Position numbers and translations under genes: made by a program | Shown: piece after piece, positions 13,355-29,885 of the stretch | Layout of the letters: every line of letters starts with the position of its first letter | Numbering within the stretch: position 1 is the first letter of the stretch | DNA from: Bacteroidia bacterium | GTDB taxonomy: Bacteria; Bacteroidota; Bacteroidia; B-17B0; Aurantibacillaceae | Assembly: GCA_022842625.1 (NCBI GenBank) | Contig: JALHPG010000016.1 | Coordinates: forward strand, 1 to 47,556 | DNA: 47,556 nucleotides | Direction: 5' to 3' | The notes under the pieces: model-generated | The model's database searches: none | What the model saw: the letters and a program-made list of their open reading frames with translations, nothing else | Told to the model about the DNA's origin: nothing

Positions 13355-14815
13355 TTGCACCAAGTAAAAAAATATTTAAGCCTAGTAATAGTAGTTGTAC
13401 TTTTTCAACTTAAAGGGCTTTGTCAAAACATTGATTCGCTTAAAATAGCCCTTAAAAATGCAAAACACGATAGTTCAAAGTGTTTAACGTTAAAGTTATT
13501 ATATAAGACCGAGAATGATAATAACCTAAAGATGGAACTTGTTAAGCAACGGTTAAAGATTGCCGAATCAAACCTTCCAAACAAAAATCAAATTCTAAGT
13601 ATTTTTTTTCTAAAACAAAAAGCAGCTTCATTAAATAATATTGGGGCTATTTATTATAGCCAAAGCGATCTCTCTATGGCGATAGAATTTTTCAAAAAGA
13701 GTTTAAAAATTAGAGAAGAGATCGGTGATAAATCGGGAATAGCCAGTTCGCTGGGAAACATTGGCATTATATATAATGATCAAGGAGATATTACTAATGC
13801 ACTCGAGTATTATTATAAGAGTTTAAAGCTTCATGAGGAAATTGGTGATAAATCCGGTATAGCAAGTTCACTAACCAATATTGGGGGCGTTTATGAAAAC
13901 CAAGGCAACATAAATAAGGCGTTAGATTATTATTACAAGGGTTTAAAGATTTATAAACAAATTCAGGATAAAACCGGCATATCAAGTTTGTTATCTAATA
14001 TTGGGTTTATTTGTAACAAGCATGGCGATATTCCAAAGGCTTTAGAGTATTTTAGTAATAGTTTAAAGATTCAGGAGGAGATTGGTGACGATCTTGGAAT
14101 AGCAAATTCGTTAAATAACTTTGGTGATATTTATAGTTACAAAGGAGATATTCCTAAGGCATTAGAGTACTATAAAAAGAGTTTAAAGATTAGAGAAGAG
14201 ATTGAGGACAAAACCGGGATAGTTGAATCTTTGAATAAAATTTCTGATATAGCTTTAAAAAAAGGAAAAGTATCAGAAGCGTTTGTTTTATCAATTAGAG
14301 GGATACAATTAGCCAAAGAATTAGGGTTTCCCGAAAATATAAAGAACTCGGCAACAACCCTTAAAAAGATTTATCAAAAACAAAATAAATACAAAGAAGC
14401 ATTTGAAATGTATGAGTTGGAAATTAAGATGCGTGACAGTATTAATAATCAGGAAACGCAAAAAGCCGCCATTAAAAAACAGATGCAATACACTTACGAG
14501 AAAAAAGAATTAGAAACCAAAGCCGAGCAAGATAAAAAAGATGCCATTGCAAAAGCAGAATTAAAACAAAAAGAAAACGAACGTAATTATTTTATAGGTG
14601 GTTTTGGTTTAGTATTAGTACTCGCCTTATTTATTTTGCGTGGCTACAAACAAAAACAAAAAGCCAACGCAATTATTCTTGAACAAAAAAAATTCGTTGA
14701 CGAAAAGCAAAAAGAAATTCTAGATTCAATACATTACGCCAAACGTATTCAAACAGCATTATTGCCAAGCGAGAAATATATTGAGAAGAGTTTAAAACAA
14801 ATGAGAAAAAGTTAA
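13355..14815 (+). CDS. TPR receptor-like protein, unit U1
   Basis: 486 residues. There is no in-frame ATG or GTG at the right place; the frame most plausibly opens with TTG at 13355, followed by a signal peptide (YLSLVIVVVLFQLKGLCQ). The mature N-cap reads NIDSLKIALKNAKHD and then the KCLTLK...RLKIAESN type shared only with U7. Five good 40-residue TPRs (about residues 88-290; consensus SLxNIGxIYxxQGDIxKALEYY) are followed by two degenerate ones. One helix (about 413-430) leads into basic YKQKQK and a cytoplasmic tail DSIHYAKRIQTALLPSEKY. The topology would be periplasmic TPRs, a single helix and a short cytosolic stub. No kinase or phosphatase domain follows. TAA is directly followed by the ATG of the next ORF. 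Ligand and partner are unknown. Confidence 0.9.
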   Translation: MHQVKKYLSLVIVVVLFQLKGLCQNIDSLKIALKNAKHDSSKCLTLKLLYKTENDNNLKMELVKQRLKIAESNLPNKNQILSIFFLKQKAASLNNIGAIYYSQSDLSMAIEFFKKSLKIREEIGDKSGIASSLGNIGIIYNDQGDITNALEYYYKSLKLHEEIGDKSGIASSLTNIGGVYENQGNINKALDYYYKGLKIYKQIQDKTGISSLLSNIGFICNKHGDIPKALEYFSNSLKIQEEIGDDLGIANSLNNFGDIYSYKGDIPKALEYYKKSLKIREEIEDKTGIVESLNKISDIALKKGKVSEAFVLSIRGIQLAKELGFPENIKNSATTLKKIYQKQNKYKEAFEMYELEIKMRDSINNQETQKAAIKKQMQYTYEKKELETKAEQDKKDAIAKAELKQKENERNYFIGGFGLVLVLALFILRGYKQKQKANAIILEQKKFVDEKQKEILDSIHYAKRIQTALLPSEKYIEKSLKQMRKS

Positions 14816-16204
14816 ATGAGAAGGCTTATTAAATACCGTTTTCTTATTTGTATACTGCTCGTCACCCTGAGCGGAGTCGAGGGGCGTCTTTATTCTCAAA
14901 ATGCTAATGTTGAACCCAACCGAACCATCGACTCTTTAAAGTTGGCTCTTAAAAATGCTAAGCATGACACTACAAGAGCTCAAATTTTATATTTATGGGG
15001 CACCCAAATTTATTTAGAGCTGCCCGATACCGGAATAATTCTATTTCAAAATGTTGTAAAAATAGCAGAGGAAACTAAGAACAAATACAAAAAGTTTGGA
15101 ACAGAAAACAAAGCAATTCATTTATCCCAGGCAAATTCCCTCTCTAATATTGGTATTATTTACTTTAATAAGGGGGAAATTCCAAAAGCTTTAGAATATC
15201 ATAGCAAGAGTCTTAAAATACAAGAAGAGATTGGATATAAATCAGGAATCGCTAGTTGCCTGAGCAACTTAGGGAGTGTTTACAATTCCCAAGGTGATTT
15301 TTCCAAAGGTTTGGAATACTATAACAAAAGTTTAAAAATACAAGAAGAGGTTGGAGATAAACAAGGAATTGCAAATGCACTGAACAACATTGGGTATGTT
15401 TACTATAACCAAAAAAATATTCCAAAAGCTTTGGAATACTACAGCAAGAGTTCAAAAATATACGAAGAGACAGGAGATAGAAGAGGGTTAGCTGTTACCT
15501 TAAACAACTTTGCATCTATTTACTACGACCAAGGAGATATAACTAAAGCTTTGGAGTACTTTAGAATTAGTTTAAAAATACGTGAAGAGATTGGAGATAA
15601 ACAAGGAGCAGCCTATGCTATTCACAATATCGGTGTTATCTATTATAAACAAGATAATTTAAAAGAAGGTTTCATCTATGCCAAGCAAGGTATGGATATT
15701 GCTAAAGAAATAGGCTACCCCGAAAATATCAAAAAAGCAGCCAAACTGTTGAAACGAATCTTCCAAAAACAAAACAAATACAAAGAAGCTTTTGAAATGT
15801 ATGAGTTGGAAATTAAAATGCGTGACAGTATTAATAATCAGGAAACGCAAAAAGCCGCCATAAAAAAGCAAATGCAATACGCTTATGAGAAAAAAGAATT
15901 AGAAACCAAAGCAGAGCAAGATAAAAAGGATGCCATTGCAAACGCAGAATTAAAACAGAAAGAAAACGAACGTAATTATTTTATAGGAGGTTTTGGTTTA
16001 GTATTAGTACTCGCCTTATTTATTTTGCGTGGCTACAAACAAAAACAAAAAGCGAATGAAATTATTTTAGAACAAAAACATTTGGTTGACGAAAAACAAA
16101 AAGAGATACTTGATTCTATTCACTATGCCAAGCGCATACAAACTGCCTTATTGCCAAGCGAGAAATATATTGATAAAAGCCTCAACCAACTTAATAAGAA
16201 GATT
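14816..16204 (+). other. Unit U2 within the fused ORF
   Basis: 463 residues. The signal peptide contains a palindromic-repeat-derived stretch (VTLSGVEGRLYSQ), as in U8 and U10. The N-cap differs from all other units: after KHDTTRA it has ILYLWGTQIYLELPDTG. Four good TPRs and two degenerate ones follow. It is the only unit whose start is a normal ATG at the head of the fusion; its end has no stop codon and runs into the internal signal peptide of U3. Confidence 0.8.
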
Positions 16205-19200
16205 TTGTCTTGCCTCTTGTGTCTTTTATCTTTTGTCGCTTTTTCGCAAAATGTAGACTCATTAAAACTCGCTCTTAAAAAGGCAAAACATGACACTACG
16301 CGGTGTGATATTTTATCTGCTCTCTCAGAAACCGCTCCGGATGGAGAATGGGAGAACTATAATTCACAATTAAAAACTATAGCAGAAAATAAGGTCAAAA
16401 GTAATCCTTCGGAGAGAAAATTTTATTTGAAACACCTGGCGTCTGCTCTAAATAATTGTGGACTTATCTTTCATTATCAAGGTGACATCTCTAAGGCATT
16501 AGAATATTACCATAAGAGCTTAAAGATTCAGGAAGAGATTTTAGATAAAAAGGGAATTGCCTATTCTCTAAATAATATTGGCCTTGTTTATGATGAACAA
16601 GGAGATGTCACAAAAGCATTAGAGTACGCAATTAAAAGTTTAAAAATTCAACAAGAGATTGGCGAAAAAGATGGAATCGCATACTCTTTAAATAACATTG
16701 GTTATATATATCAATCACGAGGAAATTTCTCCAAAGGATTAGAATATTATTTTTTGAGTTTAAAAATTAGGGAGGAGATCGGCGACAAACGTGGCATCGC
16801 TGCTTCCTTAAATAATATAGGAGGTATTTATGATCAACACCTTCAGTTTTCAAAGGCTATTGAATATTATAAAAGAAGTCTAACAATTCAAGAGCATATG
16901 GGTGACAAGAAAGGACAAGCCCACTCTTTAAACAACCTCGCCGGTGTAACAAGTAGAAATGGCAATTTAAATGAAGCATGTGGTTTTGCAAAAAGAGGAA
17001 TGCAAATTGCCTTGGATTTAGGTTACCCTGAAAATATTAACAATTCTGCAACAACACTTAAGGTGATTTTTCAAAAACAAAATAAATACAAAGAAGCTTT
17101 TGAAATGTTTGAGCTGGAGACTAAAATGCGAGACAGTATCAATAACCAGGAAACTCAAAAAGCTGCCATAAAAAAACAAATGCAATATGAATACGAGAAA
17201 AAAGAATTAGAAACTAAAGCAGAGCAAGATAAAAAAGATGCTATTGCAAAAGCAGAATTAAAACAAAAAGAAAACGAACGGAATTATTTTATTGTTGGGT
17301 TTGGTTTAGTGCTAGTACTCGCCTTATTTATTTTACGTGGCTATAGACAAAAACAAAAAGCAAACGCTATCATTATTGAGCAGAAAAAATTAGTGGATGA
17401 AAAGCAAAAAGAGATACTGGATTCTATTCATTATGCAAAACGCATACAAACTGCCTTATTGCCGAGCGAGAAATATATTGATAAAAGCCTCAACCAACTT
17501 AATAAGAAGATTTTGTCTTGCCTCTTGTGTCTTTTATCTTTTGTCGCTTTTTCGCAAAATATAGATTCACTTAAAATTGCATTAAAAAACGCAAAGCACG
17601 ATACCACGCGTTGTAATATTTTATCATTATTAGCAGAGGATGGAAGTGATGAAGAGTGGATATTGTTTAACGAACAATTGTTTAATTTGGCTAAAAAGGG
17701 AGTTGCAGAATCAAAACCAAAATCACCGACAAATTATTTTTATTTAAAACATTTTGCAAATGCACTTAATAACAATGGTTTTTTATCTAAACAACAAGGC
17801 GATATTAATATGGCGCTAGACTATTTTGATCGTAGTTTGGCTATAAGACAAAAAATTAATGATAAAAATGGTATTGCATCTTCCTTTAATAATATTGGCT
17901 CAATTTATTCAAGCCGAGGTGATGTAATAAAAGGATTAGAGTTCAATAAAAAAAGTTTACGTATTTATGAAGAATTAAAAGATAAAAAGGGGATATCAAA
18001 TTCACTAAATAATATTGCTTTAATTTATTCTAATCAAGGAGATATTTTAAATTCCCTTGATTATTATCATCAGAGTTTAAAAATTGATGAATCAATTGGA
18101 AATAAAGAAGGTATTGCTTATTCCTTAAATAATATTGGAACAATTTATAAAAGCCAAGGTGATTATCCAAAGGCCTTAGATTATTATAAAAGGAGTTTAA
18201 AAATCCAAAAAGAAATTAAAAGAAAAGTTGGGATAGCTGCAACTGAAAATAATATTGGAAATATTTTTAATCTTCAAGGTAACCAAAAAAAAGCTTTAGA
18301 ATGCTTCAATAGAGCTTTAAAAATTTGTGAAGAAGCTAACGACAAACGAGGAATTGCAGCTACATTTAGTAATTTTGGAAGTCTTTATCACGACCAAGGG
18401 CAAATTTCCGAGGCATTAGAGTATTACCAAAAAAGTTTGGTCATTCGTGAGGAGATCAAGGATAAAAAAGGTATTGCCCGCTCTTTAAATAGTATAAGCG
18501 GTATTTTACTAAAACAAGAAAAAATATCAGAGGCATTTGTTTTAGCCACAAGAGCATTGAAAATAGGTAACGAATTAGGATTTCCTGAGAATATTAATAA
18601 AGCGGCTATTACACTCAAGCAAATCTTCAAAAAACAAAATAAATACAAAGAGGCCTTTGAAATGTATGAGTTAGAAATTAAAATGCGAGATAGTATTAAT
18701 AATCAGGAAACTCAAAAAGCCGCTATTAAAAAACAAATGCAATACACTTACGAGAAAAAAGAATTAGAAACAAAAGCAGAGCAGGATAAAAAAGACGCCA
18801 TTGCAAAAGCCGAGTTAAACCAAAAAGAAAATGAGCGAAATTATTTTATTGCAGGCTTTGGTTTAGTATTAGTATTGGCATTATTTATTTTGCGTGGCTA
18901 CAAACAAAAACAAAAAGCAAATGCAATTATTTTGGAGCAAAAACATTTGGTTGACGAAAAGCAGAAAGAAATTTTAGATTCTATTCATTACGCAAAGCGC
19001 ATACAAACTGCTTTATTACCAAGCGAGAAATATATTGATAAAAGCCTCAACCAACTTAATAAGAATATTTTGTCTTGCCTCTTGTGTCTTTTATCTTTTG
19101 TCGCTTTTTCGCAAAATATAGATTCACTTAAAATTGCGCTTAAAAACGCTAAGCATGACACTACTCGCTGTAATATTTTAAACGAGCTTATCGAGAACGA

Positions 19201-22054
19201 AAGTGACGACAATATTTGGTCAAAATATAATGAGCAATTAAAAACTATAGCCGAAAAAAATCTTAAGGAGGGAGGGAGGTACAAGCAAAAGTATTTAACT
19301 TATCTTGCCTCTGCCTTAAATAATATCGGATTCCTGTTTACCAATCAAGGGAATATTCCTAAAGCTTTAGAGTACTTTAAAAATAGTTTAAAAATTAGCG
19401 AGGAGATTGGCGATAAAAAAGGTAGCGCAGAGTCTTTAAATAATATTGGGATTGTTTACGATTTACAGGGTGATATACAAAATGCATTAGAATATTTTCA
19501 TAAGAGTTTGAAAATTCAGGAAGAAATGCTTAATAAACAAGGGGTTGCACTTGCATTAAATAACCTTGGATCTATCTATGACAGACAGGGGGAAATTGCT
19601 AAAGCAATTGAGTATTATCATAAGAGTTTGCAGGCTCGGTTGGAAATTGCTGATAAACATGGTATAGCACAATCCTTAGGTAACATCGGTTCTTTGTTTA
19701 GTAAGCAAGGTAATTTCCTTAAGGCGTTAGAGTATTATCAAAAGTGTTTAAAAATTTACGAAGAGGTGAGTGATAAACTTGGAATAGCAAATTCTTTAGT
19801 TAATATCGGTTCTACTTACAATGGAATGGGCAACACGGCAAAGGCAATAGAAGATTTTAATAAAAGTTTAAGTATTTATGAGGAGATCGGAAATAGAATC
19901 GGGGTGGCATTTTCACTTAATAATCTTGCAAGTGTAATGATTAATAATGACCAATTAAATAAAGCTTTTTTTTATGCAAATAAAAGTTTACAAACGGCTA
20001 AAGAAATTGGTTATCCTGATAGAATTAAAAATGCGGCCTTCTCTCTAAAAATTATATTTCAAAAACAAAACAAATACAAAGAGGCCTTTGAAATGTATGA
20101 GTTAGAAATTAAAATGCGAGATAGTATTAATAATCAGGAAACACAAAAGGCTACTATTAAAAAACAGATGCAATACACTTACGAGAAAAAAGAATTAGAA
20201 GCCAAAGCAGAACAAGATAAAAAAGATGCCATTGCAAAAGCAGAATTAAAACAAAAAGAAAACGAACGTAATTATTTTATTGCCGGCTTTGGTTTAGTAT
20301 TAGTACTCGCATTATTTATTTTGCGTGGCTACAAACAAAAGCAAAAAGCAAATGCAATTATTTTGGAGCAAAAACATTTGGTTGACGAGAAACAAAAAGA
20401 GATACTGGATTCTATTCACTATGCCAAGCGCATACAAACTGCTTTATTACCAAGCGAGAAATATATTGATAAAAGCCTTAACCAACTTAATAAGAATATT
20501 TTGTCTTGCCTCTTGTTACTTTTATCTTTTGTCGCTTTTTCGCAAAATGTAGACTCTCTAAAACTCGAACTTAAAAACTCGGCACTTGATAGCACGCGAT
20601 GCGCTATACTTACTGCGCTAATAGAAAATGAAACCGATGATGCTATTTGGCCGACCTATAACAAAGAGTTAAAAGCCATAAGTGAATTAAATTTAAAAAG
20701 GAACCAGGCTAATAAAAATATCTATTTAATTTATTTGTCAAGAGCTATTTATTATGAAGCTTATCTTGCAGAAATTAAGGGTCAAAATGAAAAAGCAATC
20801 GATCTTTATAAGGAAAGCATTGCCGTTAAAAAATCGCTTATGGATACAATGTCTATTAGTCTTACTTTAAATGATATCGCAGGAGTTTATAAAAAGATCG
20901 GCAATCCGTTCATGGCCGAGCAAGTATTTCACGAAGCTTTAAAACTTCAAGAAGCATCAAATGATGAATTGGGGTGTTCAGTAACATTAAACAATATTGG
21001 TAATTTAAACTATTATCAAGGTAACATACCATTGGCGCTCGAAAATTATTTTTTATGCCTCAAGAAACTCGAAAAGCTAAATGATCTTGAGAGAATAGCA
21101 ACAGCTATGAGTAATATTGCAATGATTTATCTTAAACAAGGTGATATCACAAAGGCTATTGAATTCAATGGAAAAAGCCTGACCTTGCGCGAAAAATTAA
21201 TGAACAAGCTTGGTATCGCTACATCGCTTAACAATTTTGGAGAGATTTATCAGAATCAGGGTAATATAGACAAAGCTTTAGACTATTTTGAACGAAGTTT
21301 AAAAATACGGAATGAAATTAATGATAAGCCTGGTGAGGCTCAGTGTTTGTTATTTATAGGGTCCGTATACAGAAAAAAAGGTGATATCTCTAAGGCATTA
21401 GAGTACGTATCTAAAAGTTTAAAGATAAGAGAAGAGATCAAAGATAAAAGTGAAATTAGCGCATCTTTAAATTACTTGGCCGGATTATTTATGGTTAAAG
21501 GAGAATTATCCGAAGCTCACAAAAACGGAAAGCGCAGTTTAGATCTGGCGTTAGAACTGGGATTTCCATTAAACATAATTGGTCCTGCTAAAATTTTAAA
21601 ACAGGTATTTCAAAAACAAAATAAATACAAAGAAGCATTTGAAATGTACGAGCTGGAGATTAAAATGAGAGATAGTATTAATAATCAAGAAACTCAAAAA
21701 GCAGTCATAAAAAAACAAATGCAATATACTTACGAGAAAAAAGAATTAGAAGCCAAAGCAGAACAGGATAAAAAAGATGCCATTGCAAAAGCAGAATTAA
21801 AACAAAAAGAAAACGAACGTAATTATTTTATTGTTGGTTTTAGTTTAGTGCTATTACTCGCCTTATTTATTTTGCGTGGCTACAAACAAAAGCAAAAAGC
21901 CAACGCAATTATTTTGGAGCAAAAACATTTGGTTGACGAAAAGCAGAAAGAAATTTTAGATTCTATTCATTACGCTAAACGCATACAAACTGCCTTATTA
22001 CCAAGCGAAAAGTATATTAACAAGAGTTTATCTCAATTAAATAAAAAAGGTTAG
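14816..22054 (+). CDS. Five TPR units (U2-U6) fused in frame; polyprotein-like ORF
   Basis: This single ORF of 2412 codons holds five complete receptor units: residues 1-463 (U2), 464-899 (U3), 900-1418 (U4), 1419-1895 (U5) and 1896-2412 (U6). Each has N-cap, TPRs (6, 6, 8, 7 and 8 including degenerate ones), coiled coil, helix and DSIHYAKRIQ tail. Where stop and start codons stand between other units, the four junctions read LNQLNK[K/N]ILSCLLxLLSFVAFSQN, a textbook signal peptide with basic n-region, leucine-rich core and S-Q cleavage site. The chain could therefore re-enter the membrane and be cut by signal peptidase I into five mature proteins. Alternatively the TTG in each junction (16205, 17513, 19070, 20501) could start separate proteins. 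It starts 0 bp after the U1 stop (TAAATG). An assembly error in near-identical repeats is possible but would not create the signal peptides. Confidence 0.88.
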   Translation: MRRLIKYRFLICILLVTLSGVEGRLYSQNANVEPNRTIDSLKLALKNAKHDTTRAQILYLWGTQIYLELPDTGIILFQNVVKIAEETKNKYKKFGTENKAIHLSQANSLSNIGIIYFNKGEIPKALEYHSKSLKIQEEIGYKSGIASCLSNLGSVYNSQGDFSKGLEYYNKSLKIQEEVGDKQGIANALNNIGYVYYNQKNIPKALEYYSKSSKIYEETGDRRGLAVTLNNFASIYYDQGDITKALEYFRISLKIREEIGDKQGAAYAIHNIGVIYYKQDNLKEGFIYAKQGMDIAKEIGYPENIKKAAKLLKRIFQKQNKYKEAFEMYELEIKMRDSINNQETQKAAIKKQMQYAYEKKELETKAEQDKKDAIANAELKQKENERNYFIGGFGLVLVLALFILRGYKQKQKANEIILEQKHLVDEKQKEILDSIHYAKRIQTALLPSEKYIDKSLNQLNKKILSCLLCLLSFVAFSQNVDSLKLALKKAKHDTTRCDILSALSETAPDGEWENYNSQLKTIAENKVKSNPSERKFYLKHLASALNNCGLIFHYQGDISKALEYYHKSLKIQEEILDKKGIAYSLNNIGLVYDEQGDVTKALEYAIKSLKIQQEIGEKDGIAYSLNNIGYIYQSRGNFSKGLEYYFLSLKIREEIGDKRGIAASLNNIGGIYDQHLQFSKAIEYYKRSLTIQEHMGDKKGQAHSLNNLAGVTSRNGNLNEACGFAKRGMQIALDLGYPENINNSATTLKVIFQKQNKYKEAFEMFELETKMRDSINNQETQKAAIKKQMQYEYEKKELETKAEQDKKDAIAKAELKQKENERNYFIVGFGLVLVLALFILRGYRQKQKANAIIIEQKKLVDEKQKEILDSIHYAKRIQTALLPSEKYIDKSLNQLNKKILSCLLCLLSFVAFSQNIDSLKIALKNAKHDTTRCNILSLLAEDGSDEEWILFNEQLFNLAKKGVAESKPKSPTNYFYLKHFANALNNNGFLSKQQGDINMALDYFDRSLAIRQKINDKNGIASSFNNIGSIYSSRGDVIKGLEFNKKSLRIYEELKDKKGISNSLNNIALIYSNQGDILNSLDYYHQSLKIDESIGNKEGIAYSLNNIGTIYKSQGDYPKALDYYKRSLKIQKEIKRKVGIAATENNIGNIFNLQGNQKKALECFNRALKICEEANDKRGIAATFSNFGSLYHDQGQISEALEYYQKSLVIREEIKDKKGIARSLNSISGILLKQEKISEAFVLATRALKIGNELGFPENINKAAITLKQIFKKQNKYKEAFEMYELEIKMRDSINNQETQKAAIKKQMQYTYEKKELETKAEQDKKDAIAKAELNQKENERNYFIAGFGLVLVLALFILRGYKQKQKANAIILEQKHLVDEKQKEILDSIHYAKRIQTALLPSEKYIDKSLNQLNKNILSCLLCLLSFVAFSQNIDSLKIALKNAKHDTTRCNILNELIENESDDNIWSKYNEQLKTIAEKNLKEGGRYKQKYLTYLASALNNIGFLFTNQGNIPKALEYFKNSLKISEEIGDKKGSAESLNNIGIVYDLQGDIQNALEYFHKSLKIQEEMLNKQGVALALNNLGSIYDRQGEIAKAIEYYHKSLQARLEIADKHGIAQSLGNIGSLFSKQGNFLKALEYYQKCLKIYEEVSDKLGIANSLVNIGSTYNGMGNTAKAIEDFNKSLSIYEEIGNRIGVAFSLNNLASVMINNDQLNKAFFYANKSLQTAKEIGYPDRIKNAAFSLKIIFQKQNKYKEAFEMYELEIKMRDSINNQETQKATIKKQMQYTYEKKELEAKAEQDKKDAIAKAELKQKENERNYFIAGFGLVLVLALFILRGYKQKQKANAIILEQKHLVDEKQKEILDSIHYAKRIQTALLPSEKYIDKSLNQLNKNILSCLLLLLSFVAFSQNVDSLKLELKNSALDSTRCAILTALIENETDDAIWPTYNKELKAISELNLKRNQANKNIYLIYLSRAIYYEAYLAEIKGQNEKAIDLYKESIAVKKSLMDTMSISLTLNDIAGVYKKIGNPFMAEQVFHEALKLQEASNDELGCSVTLNNIGNLNYYQGNIPLALENYFLCLKKLEKLNDLERIATAMSNIAMIYLKQGDITKAIEFNGKSLTLREKLMNKLGIATSLNNFGEIYQNQGNIDKALDYFERSLKIRNEINDKPGEAQCLLFIGSVYRKKGDISKALEYVSKSLKIREEIKDKSEISASLNYLAGLFMVKGELSEAHKNGKRSLDLALELGFPLNIIGPAKILKQVFQKQNKYKEAFEMYELEIKMRDSINNQETQKAVIKKQMQYTYEKKELEAKAEQDKKDAIAKAELKQKENERNYFIVGFSLVLLLALFILRGYKQKQKANAIILEQKHLVDEKQKEILDSIHYAKRIQTALLPSEKYINKSLSQLNKKG
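14861..14886 (+). repeat. Palindromic dispersed-repeat-like element inside the U2 signal peptide
   Basis: The core CCCTGAGCGGAGTCGA is followed by GGGGCG and has imperfect dyad symmetry (CCCT...AGGG in the other copies). It lies in frame and encodes VTLSGVEGR between the hydrophobic core and the cleavage site. The same 26-bp element recurs in U8 and U10 and nowhere else in the window. From memory, similar sequences are scattered in many Bacteroidota genomes; I could not check this. Confidence 0.6.
16205..17512 (+). other. Unit U3 within the fused ORF, with internal signal peptide
   Basis: About 436 residues, the shortest unit. It opens with the internal signal peptide SCLLCLLSFVAFSQN (core at 16208-16252), after a TTG at 16205 and the basic NKK of the U2 tail. 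The N-cap is of the EW type (APDGEWENYNSQLK). Four good TPRs and two degenerate ones follow. One change in the otherwise constant block is MFELETKMRDS instead of MYELEIKMRDS. Confidence 0.78.
17513..19069 (+). other. Unit U4 within the fused ORF, with internal signal peptide
   Basis: About 519 residues. The internal signal peptide is the same as in U3. The N-cap is EW-type (GSDEEWILFNEQL). Six good TPRs and two degenerate ones follow. The TPRs are among the most divergent in the array (for example IKRKVGIAATENNIGNIF), while the C-terminal block stays constant. Confidence 0.78.
19070..20500 (+). other. Unit U5 within the fused ORF, with internal signal peptide
   Basis: About 477 residues. The junction has AAG-AAT-ATT-TTG (N instead of K before the core) and otherwise the same signal peptide. 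The N-cap is of the IW type (ESDDNIWSKYNEQLK). Five good TPRs and two degenerate ones follow. Its C-terminal block shares the U6-type ELEAKAEQ variant, a sign of exchange between neighbours. Confidence 0.78.
20501..22054 (+). other. Unit U6, last unit of the fused ORF
   Basis: About 517 residues. The internal signal peptide has SCLLLLLSFVAFSQN, one Cys fewer than its siblings. The N-cap is IW-type (ETDDAIWPTYNKELK). Six TPRs, the first two poorly conserved, and two degenerate ones follow. It ends with a true stop (NKKG, TAG at 22052), 14 bp before the TTG start of U7. Confidence 0.78.
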
Positions 22055-22068
22055 TTTAGTAAAACAAT

Positions 22069-23535
22069 TTGAAACCAATATTTAAATATCTATTATTAAG
22101 CCTGGCAGTTTTTTTGTTTCAGCTCAATTCTATTGGGCAAGATAAAACCATTGACTCTTTAAAGCTGGCACTTAAAAACGCTACGCATGATAGTACAAAA
22201 TGTTTAACATTGAAGATTTTATGTAAACTGGAAAAAGATTACGACCTAAAAATGAAACTTGCAATGCAAAGGTTAACAATTGCAGAATCGCATCTTACCG
22301 ATCCCGATAAAGCAATTCGTGTTTTTTTTCTAAAGCAAAAATCCTCATCTCTAAACACTATAGGACTTATATATTCTGATAAGTTTGAGATTCCAATGGC
22401 CTTAGAGTGTTATTACAAGAGTTTCGAGATCGATGAGAGTATTGGTGATAAGAAAGGAATGGCAACGTCTTTTAACAACATTGGCCGCGTTTATTACAAC
22501 CTTGGTGATATTGCAAAGGTGCTCGAATATTGGCACAAGGCCTTAAAGATAAGAGAAGAGATGAGTGATAAAAAAGGCATTGGAAGCAGTTTAAGCAATC
22601 TTGCGGCCATTTATCTTGTTCAAGGAGATAAACACAAGGCTTTCGAGTATGAGAATAGAAGTATCAAAATTAAATCAGAACTGGGCGATTTGATCGGAGT
22701 TGCCCATTCTTTAAATAATTTAGGAATAATGTATCGAGAACAAGGAAACTTGCCCAAATCATTAGAGTGCCATGAAAAAAGTTTAAAAATAAAAGAGGAG
22801 ATCGGAGATTATCAATCAATGCCTGAATCGTTAAATAACCTCGGTGAATTTTATATTAAACAAGGTGACTTTGAAAAGGGCTTAGATTTTCATTTCCGGG
22901 GTTTGAAAATTTGTGAAGAGATCAATGATAAAAATGCGATGACTTTAACTCTAACAGATATATGTCTTTCTTATTCGTCTCAAGGTAAGCTTAACGAGGC
23001 TTTTAATTATGGCAATAGAAGTTTGAAAATTGCTAAAGATCTTGGTTTTCCTCAATCTATTGCAAACGCTGCCTACGCTTTAAAATCAGTTTATAAAAAA
23101 CAAAACAAATACAAAGAGGCCTTTGAAATGTATGAGTTAGAAATTAAAATGCGCGACAGTGTAAATAATCAGGAAACTCAAAAGGCTACAGTCAAAAAAC
23201 AAATGCAATATGCCTACGAGAAAAAAGAATTAGAAACTAAAGCAGAACAGGATAAAAAAGATGCCATTGCAAAAGCAGAATTAAACCAGAAAGAAAACGA
23301 GCGTAATTATTTTATTGCAGGCTTTGGTTTAGTGCTAGTACTCGCCTTATTTATTTTACGTGGCTATAAACAAAAACAAAAAGCCAACGCAATTATTCTC
23401 GAACAAAAGGAACTGGTTGACGAGAAACAAAAAGAAATTCTCGATTCTATCCATTACGCAAAGCGTATTCAAACTGCCTTATTGCCTAACGAAAAGTATA
23501 TTGATAGGAGTTTAAAGCAACTGAATAAAAGTTAA
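22069..23535 (+). CDS. TPR receptor-like protein, unit U7
   Basis: 488 residues from a probable TTG start at 22069 (LKPIFKYLLLSLAVFLFQLNSIGQ as signal peptide). No ATG fits. Its N-cap (KCLTLKILCKLEKDYDLKMKL, then RLTIAESH and FFLKQKSSSLN) is homologous to U1 only, and both use TTG, so the two are a sub-lineage placed at both ends of the fused ORF. Five good TPRs (about residues 90-290) and two degenerate ones precede the constant block; the helix is near residues 414-431. The stop overlaps the next start (TAATG, 23533-23537), which suggests translational coupling to U8. It has no output domain. Confidence 0.9.
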   Translation: MKPIFKYLLLSLAVFLFQLNSIGQDKTIDSLKLALKNATHDSTKCLTLKILCKLEKDYDLKMKLAMQRLTIAESHLTDPDKAIRVFFLKQKSSSLNTIGLIYSDKFEIPMALECYYKSFEIDESIGDKKGMATSFNNIGRVYYNLGDIAKVLEYWHKALKIREEMSDKKGIGSSLSNLAAIYLVQGDKHKAFEYENRSIKIKSELGDLIGVAHSLNNLGIMYREQGNLPKSLECHEKSLKIKEEIGDYQSMPESLNNLGEFYIKQGDFEKGLDFHFRGLKICEEINDKNAMTLTLTDICLSYSSQGKLNEAFNYGNRSLKIAKDLGFPQSIANAAYALKSVYKKQNKYKEAFEMYELEIKMRDSVNNQETQKATVKKQMQYAYEKKELETKAEQDKKDAIAKAELNQKENERNYFIAGFGLVLVLALFILRGYKQKQKANAIILEQKELVDEKQKEILDSIHYAKRIQTALLPNEKYIDRSLKQLNKS

Positions 23536-25121
23536 TGAGAAAATTATTAAAATACCGTTTTCTTTTTTTTATTCTTTTCGTCACCCTGAGCGGAGTCGAA
23601 GGGCGTATTATTGCACAAAATTTAGACTCTCTAAAACTTGTTCTTAAAAATGCACACCATGATACAACGCGCTGTAATATTCTTTCAGTTCTTGCAGAAA
23701 CCGCGGGCGATGAGGAATGGCCAGCTTTTAATGAGGAGTTAAAAAATCTCGCCGAAAAAAATCTTGCCAGCAATACTGCTTATAAAAAATTTTATTTAAA
23801 ACACTTAGCCTCTGCTCTCAATAATATAGGGTTTTTAGCGAGCAGCCAGAGCGAAATACAAAAGGCGCTAGAGTTTTTTGATAAAAGTTTAAAGATCAGT
23901 TCAGAGATTGGGGATAAAGAAGGGATTGGAACCACATTAAACAATTTTGGGGTTTTATTTGGTTCCCAAGGTAACATCCCAATGGCGTTAGAATATTACC
24001 ACAAAAGTTTGAAAATTCATGAGGAGATAGGTGATAAAAGTGGGATAGCGAATGCTTTAAACAACATTGGCATCAATTATAAAAAACAAGGCGACATTTC
24101 CAAGGCATTGGACTACTATCACAGGAGTTTAAAAATAAGTGAGGAGATAGATAGCAAGCCAAGAATAGCAACTGCTTTAAATAACATTGGTGTTATTTAT
24201 GAAAAACAAGGAGATGTAACAAAGGCCTTAGACTATTATAACAAGAGTTTAAAATTTTGTGATGAAATGGGTAATAAAAAGGGAATTGCAAAAGCATTAA
24301 ATAATATTGCACACATATATAGTAATCAAGACAGCACAGAAAAAGCATTGGAGTATAATCAAAAAAGTTTAAATATTTATGAAGAAATTGGGGATAAAGC
24401 CGGGATAGCAAATTCTTTAAACAACATTGGCAGTATTTATCAAAACAAAGGTTATATGCCTAAAGCATTTGGATATTTTCAAAAGAGTTTAAAAATCCAG
24501 GAAGAAATTGGGGATAAACAAGGAATAGCATATTCTTTAAACAACATAGCCAATTCCTTAATTAAAAATGGGAAAATAGCTGAAGCACTTGTTTTTGCTG
24601 ATAAGGGGATGCAAACTTCCAAAGAAATTGGCTATGCCGAAAATATTATGATGGCAGCCGGCACTCTCAAATCAATATTCAAAAAACAAAACAAATACAA
24701 AGAAGCTTTTGAGATGTATGAGTTAGAAATTAAAATGCGAGATAGTATTAATAATCAAGAAACTCAAAAAGCCGCTATTAAAAAACAAATGCAATATACT
24801 TACGAGAAAAAAGAATTAGAAACAAAAGCAGAGCAGGATAAAAAAGACGCCATTGCTAAGGCGGAATTAAAACAAAAAGAAAACGAGCGTAATTATTTTA
24901 TTGCAGGCTTTGGTTTAGTATTAGTATTGGCATTATTTATTTTACGTGGCTACAAACAAAAACAAAAAGCAAACGCAATTATTTTACAACAAAAACATTT
25001 GGTTGACGAAAAACAAAAAGAAATTCTCGATTCTATCCATTACGCAAAGCGTATTCAAACTGCCTTATTGCCTAACGAAAAGTATATTGATAGGAGTTTA
25101 AAGCAACTGAATAAAAGTTAA
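23535..25121 (+). CDS. TPR receptor-like protein, unit U8
   Basis: 528 residues. It starts at the ATG that overlaps the U7 stop. The signal peptide carries the palindromic element (VTLSGVEGRIIAQN). The N-cap is EW-type (AGDEEWPAFNEELK). Six regular TPRs of 40 residues and two degenerate ones follow; several have the pure consensus SLNNIGSIYQNKG / EEIGDKQGIA. The constant C-terminal block gives coiled coil, helix and stub. The U8 and U10 blocks share IILQQKHLVDEKQ where most units have ILEQK, pointing to conversion or duplication between them. TAA is directly followed by the ATG of U9. Confidence 0.91.
   Translation: MRKLLKYRFLFFILFVTLSGVEGRIIAQNLDSLKLVLKNAHHDTTRCNILSVLAETAGDEEWPAFNEELKNLAEKNLASNTAYKKFYLKHLASALNNIGFLASSQSEIQKALEFFDKSLKISSEIGDKEGIGTTLNNFGVLFGSQGNIPMALEYYHKSLKIHEEIGDKSGIANALNNIGINYKKQGDISKALDYYHRSLKISEEIDSKPRIATALNNIGVIYEKQGDVTKALDYYNKSLKFCDEMGNKKGIAKALNNIAHIYSNQDSTEKALEYNQKSLNIYEEIGDKAGIANSLNNIGSIYQNKGYMPKAFGYFQKSLKIQEEIGDKQGIAYSLNNIANSLIKNGKIAEALVFADKGMQTSKEIGYAENIMMAAGTLKSIFKKQNKYKEAFEMYELEIKMRDSINNQETQKAAIKKQMQYTYEKKELETKAEQDKKDAIAKAELKQKENERNYFIAGFGLVLVLALFILRGYKQKQKANAIILQQKHLVDEKQKEILDSIHYAKRIQTALLPNEKYIDRSLKQLNKS
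23580..23605 (+). repeat. Palindromic dispersed-repeat-like element inside the U8 signal peptide
   Basis: This copy (core CCCTGAGCGGAGTCGA, then AGGGCG) is in the same reading frame and at the same place in the signal peptide as in U2 and U10. The flanking DNA upstream (AAATACCGTTTTCT) is also shared. Confidence 0.62.
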
Positions 25122-26723
25122 ATGAGAAAATATTTTATACATATAATTCTTAATTTAACATTTTTAATTTTTAATTCATTTTGCTTTTCGCAAAATTCTA
25201 GTGGTGAGTCTAGTCGAACCATCGACTCTCTAAAACTAGCTCTTAAAAACGCTAAGCACGATACTACACGGTGTCATATTTTATACGCAATAATCGAAGT
25301 GGAGGGTGATGATAATATTTGGCCTCAATACAATGAACAATTAAAACAAGTTGCACAAAAGAATATTGCCAATAATTCAGCGCCTAAAAATTTTTACTTA
25401 AAGCAACTTGCTGATGCCTTGAATAACTTTGGGTACTTGGCAAATCAAAAAGGTGACTTGCAAAAAGCGTTGGAGTATCATCAAAAGAGTTTAAAAATTA
25501 GGGAAGAGATTGGAGATAAACAAGGAATAGCAGGCTCTTTAGACAACATTGGGTTTATCTATTACAGCCAAGGTGACATCTCAAAGGCAGAGGAGTCTTA
25601 TAGCAAGAGTTTAATAATCCTGGAAGAAGTTGGGGATAAAAAAGGAATATCAGAGTCTTTAAACAACCTTGGATTTATTTTTAAAGACCAAGGTGATATC
25701 CCAAAAGCATTGGAGTATTATCATAAAAGTTTAAAGTTTAGAGAAGAGATTGGAGATAAAAAAGGGATAGCAATTTCATTAAACAATATTGGACTTATTT
25801 ATAATAGCCAAGGTGATATTCCAAAAGCGTTGGAGTGCCAACACAAGAGTTTAAAGATAAGAGAAGAGATTGGTGATAAGCGGGGAATAGCAGAGTCTTT
25901 AAATAATATTGGCTTTTTTTATAACAGTCAGGGGAGTACCCAAAAGGCGTTGGAGTACCACCGCAAAAGTTTAAAGATCAGAGAAGATATTGATGATAAA
26001 CGAGGAATAGCAAATTCATTAGACAATATCGGTTCAATTTATGACAGCCAAGGCGACATCCATAAGGCGTTGGGGTATCTGCTAAAGAGTTTAAGCATAT
26101 ATGAGGAGATTGGAGATAGACCTGGAATCGCAGGTACTTTATATAATATTGCTGTTTTGACTTTAAGAAAAGGACAAGTGCAAGAGGCTTTCGTGTTTGC
26201 TAGCAAGGGAATGCAAGTTGCTAAAGAATTAGGCTTTCCTGAAAATATTAAGAACTCTGCGAATACGCTTAAGTCAATATTCAAAAAACAAAATAAATAC
26301 AAAGAGGCCTTTGAAATGTATGAGTTAGAAATTAAAATGCGAGATAGTATTAATAATCAAGAAACTCAAAAAGCCTCTATTAAAAAACAAATGCAATACA
26401 CTTACGAGAAAAAAGAATTAGAAACCAAAGCAGAGCAAGATAAAAAAGATGCCATTGCAAAAGCCGAGTTAAACCAAAAAGAAAATGAGAGAAATTATTT
26501 TATAGCAGGTTTTGGTTTAGTTTTAGTTCTTGCATTATTTATTTTGCGCGGCTATAAACAAAAACAAAAAGCGAATGTAATTATTGCAGCTCAAAAACAT
26601 TTGGTAGAGGAAAAGCAAAAAGAAATTCTAGATTCCATTCATTATGCAAAACGCATACAAACTGCATTGTTGCCGAATGAAAAATATATTGATAAGAGTT
26701 TGAAGCAATTGAATAAAAGTTAA
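25122..26723 (+). CDS. TPR receptor-like protein, unit U9
   Basis: 533 residues with an ordinary signal peptide (FIHIILNLTFLIFNSFCFSQ) found in no other unit. A short insert SSGESSRT before IDSLKLALKNAKHDTTRC resembles the one in U2 (NVEPNRT). The N-cap is IW-type (GDDNIWPQYNEQLK). Six very regular TPRs follow, most with EEIGDK in the turn, which suggests recent internal duplication of 120-bp units, then two degenerate ones. The tail block has IIAAQKHLVEEKQ, shared in part with U11. The stop is directly followed by the ATG of U10. Confidence 0.91.
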   Translation: MRKYFIHIILNLTFLIFNSFCFSQNSSGESSRTIDSLKLALKNAKHDTTRCHILYAIIEVEGDDNIWPQYNEQLKQVAQKNIANNSAPKNFYLKQLADALNNFGYLANQKGDLQKALEYHQKSLKIREEIGDKQGIAGSLDNIGFIYYSQGDISKAEESYSKSLIILEEVGDKKGISESLNNLGFIFKDQGDIPKALEYYHKSLKFREEIGDKKGIAISLNNIGLIYNSQGDIPKALECQHKSLKIREEIGDKRGIAESLNNIGFFYNSQGSTQKALEYHRKSLKIREDIDDKRGIANSLDNIGSIYDSQGDIHKALGYLLKSLSIYEEIGDRPGIAGTLYNIAVLTLRKGQVQEAFVFASKGMQVAKELGFPENIKNSANTLKSIFKKQNKYKEAFEMYELEIKMRDSINNQETQKASIKKQMQYTYEKKELETKAEQDKKDAIAKAELNQKENERNYFIAGFGLVLVLALFILRGYKQKQKANVIIAAQKHLVEEKQKEILDSIHYAKRIQTALLPNEKYIDKSLKQLNKS

Positions 26724-29700
26724 ATGAGAAAATTTTTAAAATACCGTTTTCTGATTTTTATTCTACTCGTCACCCTGAGCGGAGTCGAAGGGCGTCTTTA
26801 TTCACAAAATGTAGACTCCCTAAAACTTGCGCTAAAAAATGCAAAGCATGACACAACCCGTTGTAATGTTTTGTCTATGCTTGTTGCAACGGCAAGTGTT
26901 GAAGAATGGCCTAAATTTAATGAACAGCTACTAAATCTATGTGAAAGTAAAATAAAGTTAACTCAAAGATCTAGTTCAGAAAATAAAGTTTATTTAGTGC
27001 GTTATGCCGAAGCGTTAAATACCATTGGGGTTATTTATGCCGATAAAGGAGACTTCCCAAAAGGATTAGAGTGCAATTTCAAGAGTTTAAAAATTTGGGA
27101 AGAGCTAGGAAATAAAATAGGAATAGCCAAATCCATGCTTAACATTGCAACTATTTACTATAATCAAGGAGATATTCCTGAAGCATTAGAGTATCATTTC
27201 AAGAGTTTAAAAATAAAAGAAGAAGTTGGGAGTAAAAAGGACATAGCAAAATCATTAAATAACATTGCTGTAATTTATGATAACCAAGGAGACATATCCA
27301 AAGCATTAGAGTATCATAGTAAAAGTTTAAAATTAAGAGAAGAGATAGGTGATAATAGTGGAATAGCCTTATCTCTTAACAATATTGGATTTATATACAA
27401 TAATCAGGGAGATGTATCTAAAGCTTTAGAGTATTTTAAGGAAAGTTTAAAAATTCAGGAAAAAAACGGAATTAAAATGGGAATTGCCATTTCACTTAAC
27501 AACATTGGGGTAATTTACAAAAATCATGGCGAGTATACCAAAGCTCTGGAATACCTTTTAAAGAGTTTAAAAATTGGCGAAGAGATAGGTGATAAAATAG
27601 GAGTAGCATCTTCACTTAAAAATATTGGGATAATTTACGAGAATCAAGGAGATATTCAAAAAGCTATGGGATACTATAGCAGGAGTCTAAAAATTGGAGA
27701 AGAGATAGGTTACAAACGGGGTGTAGCTGTTTCTTTATGCAGCATCGGTTATCTTTATTATAAACTAGGTAATTTAAAAGAAGGACTCGCTTATACAACT
27801 AGAGCGTTAAATACTTCTAAAGAATTAGGTTATCCTGAAAATATTAGAAGCTCAGCCGCCACGCTAAAACAAATCTATCAAAAGCAAAACAAATTCACAG
27901 AGGCTTTTGAAATGTATGAGTTAGAAATTAAAATGCGCGACAGTATTAATAATCAAGAAACTCAAAAAGCCGCTATTAAAAAACAAATGCAATACACTTA
28001 CGAGAAAAAAGAATTAGAAACTAAAGCAGAGCAAGATAAAAAAGATGCCATTGCTAAGGCGGAATTAAAACAAAAAGAAAACGAGCGTAATTATTTTATT
28101 GCAGGCTTTGGTTTAGTATTAGTATTGGCATTATTTATTTTACGTGGCTATAAACAAAAACAAAAAGCAAACGCAATTATTTTACAACAAAAACATTTGG
28201 TAGATGAAAAACAAAAAGAAATTCTCGATTCCATTCATTACGCTAAACGTATACAAACTGCTTTATTACCAAACGAAAAGTATATTGATAAAAGCCTCAA
28301 TCAACTTAATAAGAAGATTTTGTCTTTCATCTTGTGTCTTTTTTCTTTTGTCTCTTTTTCGCAAAATATAGACTCTTTAAAACTTGCTCTTAAAAATGCC
28401 AAGCATGATACAACGAGGTGCATTTTGCATAATACTTTAGGTGAAGTTATGTTTTATGATAATATGGATTCCTCGGTAGTATATTGGAATAAAGCTATAG
28501 AAATTGCAGAAAGGCATTTGAAATCAGGTTCCGATTCTAAAGTGGTTTTAAAAACAATTAAGACTTACTATTCTGTAGCTTTAAATAATCTGGGAGTTTT
28601 ATATCAGGGCAATGGTGATTTTAAAAAGGCCTTGGATTATAATCAAAGGAGTTTAAAGGTATGCACAGAGCTGGGAGATAAATTGGGTATGGCTTATGCA
28701 ATAAATAATATTGGGAGTCTTTACCAGGATAAAGGTGATGTGGAGAATGCAATTACTTACTCGCAAAAAGCTTATAAATTATATGAAGAACTTGGCGATA
28801 AAGAAGGTATGTCCATTACATTGGGTAATATAGGGAGCCTTTATATTAAGCAAGGCGATATTCTTATGGCATTGGAAATTAATCACCGCAGCTTAAAAAT
28901 TTGTGAAGAGCTGGGTGATAAATTAAGTATGTCCTATGCTCTGAATAATCTGGGCTCTATTCAGCTAATGCAGGGTAATTTAGATAAGTCTTTAGAATAT
29001 TTGCAGAGAAGTTTAAAACTTCGCGAAGAACTTGGCGATAAAAAGGGGATTGCTTCCTCTTTTCACAATATAGCTGAGATTTATAATAGAGAAGGAAGAA
29101 TACCTAAGGCTATAGAATTTCATCAGAAAAGTTTAAAAATTCGGGAAGAAATTGGAGATAAATTGGGTATGACAACAAGCTTAACAAATTTAGGGATAAT
29201 GTATGGTTTTCTGGACGACAATAAGAAGGCATTAGCGTATTTGTATCAGAGCTTGAAAATTTGTGAAGAAGTTGGAATTAAAGACGGCGTGGGTTCGGCA
29301 TCAAATCTTGTTGCAAAATATTTGACAAAAGAAGGTAACATACAAAAAGCCTTGCCGTACGCATTTAAAGGCTTTGAAATAGCAAAAGAAGTAGGGTATC
29401 CGGAAAGTATAAAAGCTTCGGCCAATACACTTAAAAACATTTTTCTAAAACAAAACAAATACAAAGAAGCTTTTGAGATGTATGAGTTAGAAATTAAAAT
29501 GCGAGATAGTATTAATAATCAAGAAACTCAAAAAGCTGCCATAAAAAAGCAAATGCAATATACTTACGAGAAAAAAGAATTAGAAACTAAAGCAGAGCAA
29601 GATAAAAAAGATGCCATTGCAAAAGCAGAATTAAACCAAAAAGAAAATGAGCGAAATTATTTTATTGCAGGTTTCGGTTTAGTGTTAATACTTGCCTTGT

Positions 29701-29885
29701 TTATTTTACGTGGCTACAAACAAAAACAAAAGGCTAATGAAATAATTGCAGCTCAAAAACATTTGGTAGATGAAAAACAAAAAGAAATTCTAGATTCAAT
29801 ACATTACGCTAAACGCATACAAACGGCTTTATTACCAAGCGAAAAGTATATTGATAAGAGTTTGAATCAGTTGAATAAAAGCTAA
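26724..29885 (+). CDS. Two TPR units (U10-U11) fused in frame
   Basis: 1053 codons. U10 covers residues 1-532 and U11 residues 533-1053. U10 has the palindromic-element signal peptide and EW-type N-cap (SVEEWPKFNEQL), with six good and two degenerate TPRs. The junction at about 28311-28370 (NKKILSFILCLFSFVSFSQN) is a slightly diverged form of the internal signal peptides in the larger fusion. U11 has a different N-cap (RCILHNTLGEVMFYDNMDSSVVYW) and the most TPRs of the array (seven good and two degenerate). Both have the constant helix and tail block. It starts 0 bp after the U9 stop and ends 2 bp before the SRAP gene. The reading as a polyprotein or as two start sites is the same question as for U2-U6. 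Confidence 0.88.
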   Translation: MRKFLKYRFLIFILLVTLSGVEGRLYSQNVDSLKLALKNAKHDTTRCNVLSMLVATASVEEWPKFNEQLLNLCESKIKLTQRSSSENKVYLVRYAEALNTIGVIYADKGDFPKGLECNFKSLKIWEELGNKIGIAKSMLNIATIYYNQGDIPEALEYHFKSLKIKEEVGSKKDIAKSLNNIAVIYDNQGDISKALEYHSKSLKLREEIGDNSGIALSLNNIGFIYNNQGDVSKALEYFKESLKIQEKNGIKMGIAISLNNIGVIYKNHGEYTKALEYLLKSLKIGEEIGDKIGVASSLKNIGIIYENQGDIQKAMGYYSRSLKIGEEIGYKRGVAVSLCSIGYLYYKLGNLKEGLAYTTRALNTSKELGYPENIRSSAATLKQIYQKQNKFTEAFEMYELEIKMRDSINNQETQKAAIKKQMQYTYEKKELETKAEQDKKDAIAKAELKQKENERNYFIAGFGLVLVLALFILRGYKQKQKANAIILQQKHLVDEKQKEILDSIHYAKRIQTALLPNEKYIDKSLNQLNKKILSFILCLFSFVSFSQNIDSLKLALKNAKHDTTRCILHNTLGEVMFYDNMDSSVVYWNKAIEIAERHLKSGSDSKVVLKTIKTYYSVALNNLGVLYQGNGDFKKALDYNQRSLKVCTELGDKLGMAYAINNIGSLYQDKGDVENAITYSQKAYKLYEELGDKEGMSITLGNIGSLYIKQGDILMALEINHRSLKICEELGDKLSMSYALNNLGSIQLMQGNLDKSLEYLQRSLKLREELGDKKGIASSFHNIAEIYNREGRIPKAIEFHQKSLKIREEIGDKLGMTTSLTNLGIMYGFLDDNKKALAYLYQSLKICEEVGIKDGVGSASNLVAKYLTKEGNIQKALPYAFKGFEIAKEVGYPESIKASANTLKNIFLKQNKYKEAFEMYELEIKMRDSINNQETQKAAIKKQMQYTYEKKELETKAEQDKKDAIAKAELNQKENERNYFIAGFGLVLILALFILRGYKQKQKANEIIAAQKHLVDEKQKEILDSIHYAKRIQTALLPSEKYIDKSLNQLNKS
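26769..26794 (+). repeat. Palindromic dispersed-repeat-like element inside the U10 signal peptide
   Basis: Third copy of the 26-bp element, identical over its full length to the U8 copy as far as I can read and again in frame as VTLSGVEGR. It lies 46 bp after the ATG, as in U2 and U8. Confidence 0.62.
28320..29885 (+). other. Unit U11 within the second fused ORF, with internal signal peptide
   Basis: About 521 residues. It begins at a TTG (28320) inside the junction, followed by SFILCLFSFVSFSQN as signal-peptide core and cleavage region. Its TPR turns favour EELGDK over the EEIGDK of other units, so its TPR block has a separate history although its last 438 bp match the array. Confidence 0.78.

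Follow-up and report, generated by a model that had tools for sequence, protein, structure and literature searches.

Many animal viruses make polyproteins that contain internal signal peptides. Among bacterial membrane proteins, we know of one worked-out case, the cytochrome b/c1 preprotein FbcH of Bradyrhizobium japonicum, which is reportedly encoded by one gene, carries an internal signal, and undergoes post-translational processing. Searches of a limited literature collection for bacterial polyproteins yielded no relevant match, and FbcH is, by our comparison, the nearest precedent for the locus described here. The likeness is that one bacterial gene encodes two membrane proteins, the second with an internal signal sequence. 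However, FbcH is a single fusion of two unlike subunits that belong to one complex, whereas the genes described here combine two to five homologous sensors, their seams have been duplicated within arrays, and a single genus has both split and fused forms. For FbcH, cleavage has been proven, whereas we infer cleavage by signal peptidase I at the present seams from their sequence. The first-pass annotation called a bacterial membrane polyprotein matured in this way very unusual, which is a fair description, although the B. japonicum gene with its internal signal means that it is not unprecedented.

Three further systems invite comparison. In hepatitis C virus, internal signals such as that at the core-E1 junction are reported to be cut by the host signal peptidase, with the upstream product keeping the signal as an anchor (PMC5402940). 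Such eukaryotic-virus polyproteins are viral, belong to the eukaryotic ER, and have no sequence relation to the seams reported here. Signal peptidase I substrates that follow the Q rule in Bacteroidota (PMC5837995, PMC10653852) resemble the seams by the Q after the predicted cut, but their signals are N-terminal rather than internal; pyroglutamate at inner membrane proteins has been called untested (PMC5837995). Finally, TPR-SpoIIE (PP2C) sensors of Bacteroidota share with our units, which also have a signal and a transmembrane (TM) helix, the TPR domain and a tail with a HYAKRIQxALLP-like linker. Those sensors carry a SpoIIE phosphatase, whereas the units here end right after the tail.

An array of stand-alone and fused receptor units

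The window, i.e., the whole stretch of 47,556 nucleotides that was analysed, comes from the draft genome, in 229 contigs, of an uncultured Bacteroidota bacterium. It contains an array, at positions 13355 to 29885, of four stand-alone units, abutting or nearly so, and two fused genes. A third fused gene of the same genome (967 aa) lies on another contig. The features of the array are the following.

13355-14815, + strand: stand-alone unit of the same family; its TAA stop abuts the ATG of the 2412-aa ORF
14816-22054, + strand: five-unit fused receptor ORF, 2412 aa, by domain and frame analysis
14816-14896, + strand: N-terminal signal peptide, predicted cut before Q28 (RLYS, then QN), with an embedded dispersed repeat at 14860-14883
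15974-16039, + strand: TM helix of unit 1, by hydrophobicity; the basic, predicted cytosolic tail comes next
16187-16246, + strand: predicted internal signal peptide 1, LNKKILSCLLCLLSFVAFS followed by Q478, by matrix score and seam alignment
17279-17347, + strand: TM helix of unit 2, by hydrophobicity
17495-17554, + strand: predicted internal signal peptide 2, cut before Q914
18839-18904, + strand: TM helix of unit 3, by hydrophobicity
19052-19111, + strand: predicted internal signal peptide 3, cut before Q1433
20270-20335, + strand: TM helix of unit 4, by hydrophobicity
20483-20542, + strand: predicted internal signal peptide 4, cut before Q1910
21818-21886, + strand: TM helix of unit 5, by hydrophobicity
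22069-23535, + strand: stand-alone unit
23535-25121, + strand: stand-alone unit; its start overlaps the stop of the preceding unit
25122-26723, + strand: stand-alone unit, abutting both neighbours
26724-29885, + strand: second fused ORF of the array, two units, 1053 aa
28302-28361, + strand: predicted internal signal peptide of the second fused ORF, LNKKILSFILCLFSFVSFS followed by Q547

Positions 14816 to 22054 form a single open frame of 2412 codons, starting with ATG and free of internal stops, and its five TPR-TM units confirm that five receptors are fused in one ORF, as the first-pass annotation had proposed. In each unit, TPR repeats accompany a single TM helix and a basic tail that closes with HYAKRIQTALLPSEKYI; the full design runs from a signal peptide through the TPR repeats and the TM helix to a basic tail that closes with KEILDSIHYAKRIQTALLPSEKYIDKSLNQLNK. 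The four seams take the form QLNKKILSCLLCLLSFVAFS before the predicted cut and QN after it, with neither a stop codon nor an ATG or GTG. At all four, a hydrophobic stretch and SQN follow the tail directly, in place of the stop and start that would be expected in a stand-alone gene. The predicted cuts lie before residues 478, 914, 1433, and 1910, in agreement with the seam positions proposed earlier (464, 900, 1419, and 1896), and the hydrophobicity profile of the protein shows an N-terminal signal followed by TM and seam segments in alternation.

We propose that the array encodes tandem TPR membrane sensors, some neighbours of which are fused in frame, made as a polyprotein, and cut by signal peptidase I at the seams, a reading to which we assign a probability of about 0.68. 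The long chain is thus probably divided into several sensors.

A dispersed repeat, CGTCACCCTGAGCGGAGTCGAAGG, is found at 14860-14883, 23579-23602, and 26768-26791, within the N-terminal signal peptides of three array genes. It is translated as VTLSGVEG in all three, with none expected by chance.

Signal-peptide character of the seams

A scoring matrix was built in this analysis from N-terminal signal peptides, nearly all of them from stand-alone family members. The seams scored 14.3 to 27.8, compared with 18.3 ± 4.7 for the training N-termini and at most 12.4 for the family's TM helices, the -1 and +1 columns being partly circular, as the training sites were chosen for Q, K, or H at +1 and a small residue at -1. 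Judged by their sequence, the seams are signal peptides, scoring like or above the N-terminal ones of the family and above its TM helices. Position -1 was S or A in all 13 seams, position -3 was A, S, or T in 12, and position +1 was Q in 12, with G at +1 in seam j1 of sister species G006; some seams have a single basic residue. The matrix scores and the residues at -1 and +1 support the earlier reading of these junctions as internal signal peptides, with n, h, and c regions and a Q-rule signal peptidase I site. Signal peptidase I genes are present in the genome.

The fusion might be real and yet remain uncut, with each seam serving as an ordinary TM helix of one large membrane protein, which would then carry as many as five consecutive TPR domains in the periplasm. 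With a Kyte-Doolittle peak of 2.5, the seam core is sufficiently hydrophobic for an anchor, but it comprises just about 15 residues, which is short for a TM helix. Moreover, the small residues at -1 and -3 and the Q at +1 persist while the core varies, and the matrix separates the seams from the TM helices of the family. We therefore regard an uncut product as unlikely.

The seams were also inspected for start codons, as the units might be started additionally, or exclusively, from a TTG in the seam, which would make the locus an overlapping operon with no polyprotein. In the 2412-aa ORF, there is no in-frame ATG or GTG from the tail to 60 codons beyond the cut, and TTG occurs at -14 and -10. 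Nine of the 13 seams have TTG at -14 relative to the cut, where weak initiation is possible, and the fused gene of G021 described below has an in-frame GTG at -20. However, initiation at -14 would lose the basic n-region, the abutting split genes of the window mostly begin with ATG, and seam j1 of G006 has just a TTG at -7. In sister species G007, no in-frame ATG, GTG, or TTG was found between the tail end and 51 codons beyond the cut, so unit 2 would hardly be made except by read-through from unit 1. Separate start codons at the seams were rejected, as there is no common one, and internal initiation appears quite improbable to us. A single frame encodes several membrane proteins that lack starts of their own, with the caveat of the TTG at -14 in many seams.

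The orthologous units of G007 and sister species G025 were compared, giving pN and pS values of 0.145 and 0.691 for unit 1 and of 0.157 and 0.682 for unit 2. By this measure, downstream units lacking a start codon are under purifying selection, with synonymous sites saturated. Length differences among aligned homologous seams are whole codons.

Seam DNA resembles the signal peptides of other exported proteins in the genus, including the N-terminal signal peptide of a LysM protein of the same genome (85% over 61 bases with a seam-like query). A LysM-like gene (L013, 6826-6886) bears a signal similar to the seams. When W1 seam 1, W2, and the own-genome C12 copy (L009) were compared in pairs, the signal-peptide DNA gave pS values of 0 to 0.13 over few sites, unlike the tail and mature parts, in which synonymous sites are saturated. 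This suggests that signal-peptide modules have been exchanged between genes. In G020, the non-TPR protein L193, peptidase-like by eye, begins with SQNTSGEPSRTKDS, a start resembling that of some mature TPR sensors, possibly through a swap of the signal plus N-terminus.

Fused and split forms in related genomes

Fused ORFs with homologous seams are present in four other species of the same genus, G006 (2086 aa), G020 (1017 aa), G007 (968 aa), and G025 (974 aa), the best seam of each being 75 to 87% identical to the query seam. The relative records named are metagenome-assembled genomes, e.g., JAEUTO010000011, JAUXSA010000065, JAEUTP010000007, and JACDED010000059. The 967-aa copy of the source genome and the copies of G006, G020, and G007 all lie between the same response regulator and HAD hydrolase genes. 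The G025 copy has the response regulator side in common with the others, and its contig ends on the opposite side. Fused ORFs are found in five species, including the source genome, at one syntenic locus. Fused membrane sensors, two to five per gene, are kept in the source genome and these four sister species, and their joints look cuttable. This conservation strengthens the fusion, the topology, and the internal signals first proposed from the window.

The four seams of the window are 95 to 100% identical in DNA from -60 to +3 and 85 to 93% identical from -300 to -61, and the bases after the cut are 57 to 74% identical. They are therefore copies of one event and should be counted once, so that independent support comes from the other genomes. 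The first-pass annotation had reasoned that four absent stops could not be a simple chance mutation. That argument fails as made, and the four lost stops were rejected as independent evidence, as the seams are recently duplicated DNA. An assembly or sequencing artefact, or decay of genes with no functional fusion, could still be suspected from the draft state of the genome, the repetitive array, and the near identity of the four seams. Nevertheless, the same seam is found at a syntenic locus in the assemblies of four other species, and downstream units are under purifying selection with saturated synonymous sites. For these reasons, the fused gene is neither an assembly nor a stop-loss accident, and we give an artefact or gene decay hardly any credence. 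In a neutral simulation with substitutions alone, the chance that a 32-codon seam stays open was about 0.1 to 0.2 per lineage at branch lengths of 0.5 to 1, and about 0.1 at branch length 1. Conservation of the open frame by itself is moderate evidence, and purifying selection on the downstream units is the stronger argument.

Two sister species, G018 and G325, have related units that are kept apart by a spacer of some 150 bases; a TGA stands at the left end of this spacer and an ATG close to its right end. The split array of G018 is at the same locus as the fused genes, and that of G325 is broken over contigs and partly placed. G006 has both fused and split forms. In a tree of two flanking genes, G325 is sister to the source genome and G018 to G020, with weak deeper branches, and either the fused or the split state could be the older one. 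For the family, a regular-expression census of the sequence searched counted 13 fused seams and 67 split neighbours, all distinct. In most split pairs, the stop lies 60 to 100 bases ahead of the mature start, so that fusion is one small change away. We lean slightly towards the view that the genus stably keeps polyproteins of up to five paralogous receptors, which would be matured by signal peptidase I with the upstream receptors gaining a second, C-terminal helix, and that fused and split states swap within arrays in evolution. Some large ORFs from a class-wide search were rejected as fusions, being beta-propeller-like sensors with the same tail or full SpoIIE proteins.

The spacers between split units (L079, 5077-5220; L095, 2016-2155; L074, 4344-4490) have inverted CACATAG/CTATGTG ends and contain a palindrome like ATTCTGCCAAAGGCAGAAT, and their ends supply the stop and start codons. 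The idea of a genome-wide mobile element was rejected, as a 140-base query matched almost only in these arrays. In G021, also of this genus, a fused two-unit ORF (L078, 889-3807) has an unrelated-looking seam, LLLCLCLFSCSYISA followed by QP, and is perhaps a second, independent fusion.

Topology, proposed processing, and output

In a TPR-SpoIIE protein of the same genus (L065), the tail ends where SpoIIE begins, leading directly into the phosphatase. SpoIIE phosphatases are a cytosolic enzyme family. The tail should therefore be cytosolic, and the next signal would thus start on the correct side of the membrane, so this junction supports the earlier proposal that each unit ends in the cytosol and that the topology is workable. 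AlphaFold2 modelling of the 967-aa form gave two confident TPR solenoids joined by a low-confidence seam, and the TPR domain of LGN/Pins is among the nearest solved folds.

In the proposed polyprotein, the tail of a unit would stay in the cytosol, and the basic LNKK and hydrophobic core of the seam would act as a new Sec signal, sending the next TPR domain into the periplasm so that the chain is threaded in and out of the membrane. Signal peptidase I would then cut after S or A and before Q, as with other Bacteroidota exports (PMC5837995, PMC10653852), and each mature downstream receptor would begin with QN-x-DSLK, just as stand-alone receptors would. As the signal is located between neighbouring units, every unit but the last would keep it as a C-terminal second membrane helix, and its cytosolic tail would become a loop. 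The fused products would be made in equal amounts and inserted side by side. If this holds true, signal peptidase I can act as a routine polyprotein-processing enzyme, in a conserved, multi-unit bacterial version, and the genus would offer a natural system for how Sec handles a mid-chain signal in a nascent chain and for how a fixed sensor stoichiometry is achieved.

The TPR domain, TM helix, and HYAKRIQ linker are present in the units. Among the matches listed for the proteins of the window, which for the 2412-aa protein were the best 25 of 28, the SpoIIE/PP2C family (PF07228) was absent. The tail of the window units goes straight to a seam or a stop; the SpoIIE domain is present in L065 of a relative. 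The profile for sensor histidine kinase FimS (NF053520) gave 495 bits for the five units together, below its curated cut-off of 600, with the best match in the TPR/TM part. As the units have no SpoIIE output domain, a partner must carry the output; we speculate that the coiled tails perhaps pair with full-length TPR-SpoIIE proteins. Sensors whose tail stops just short of the SpoIIE start were seen at 75 places in the source genome and also in genomes of the same genus, a large expansion that includes the beta-propeller-like L241, L242, and L243.
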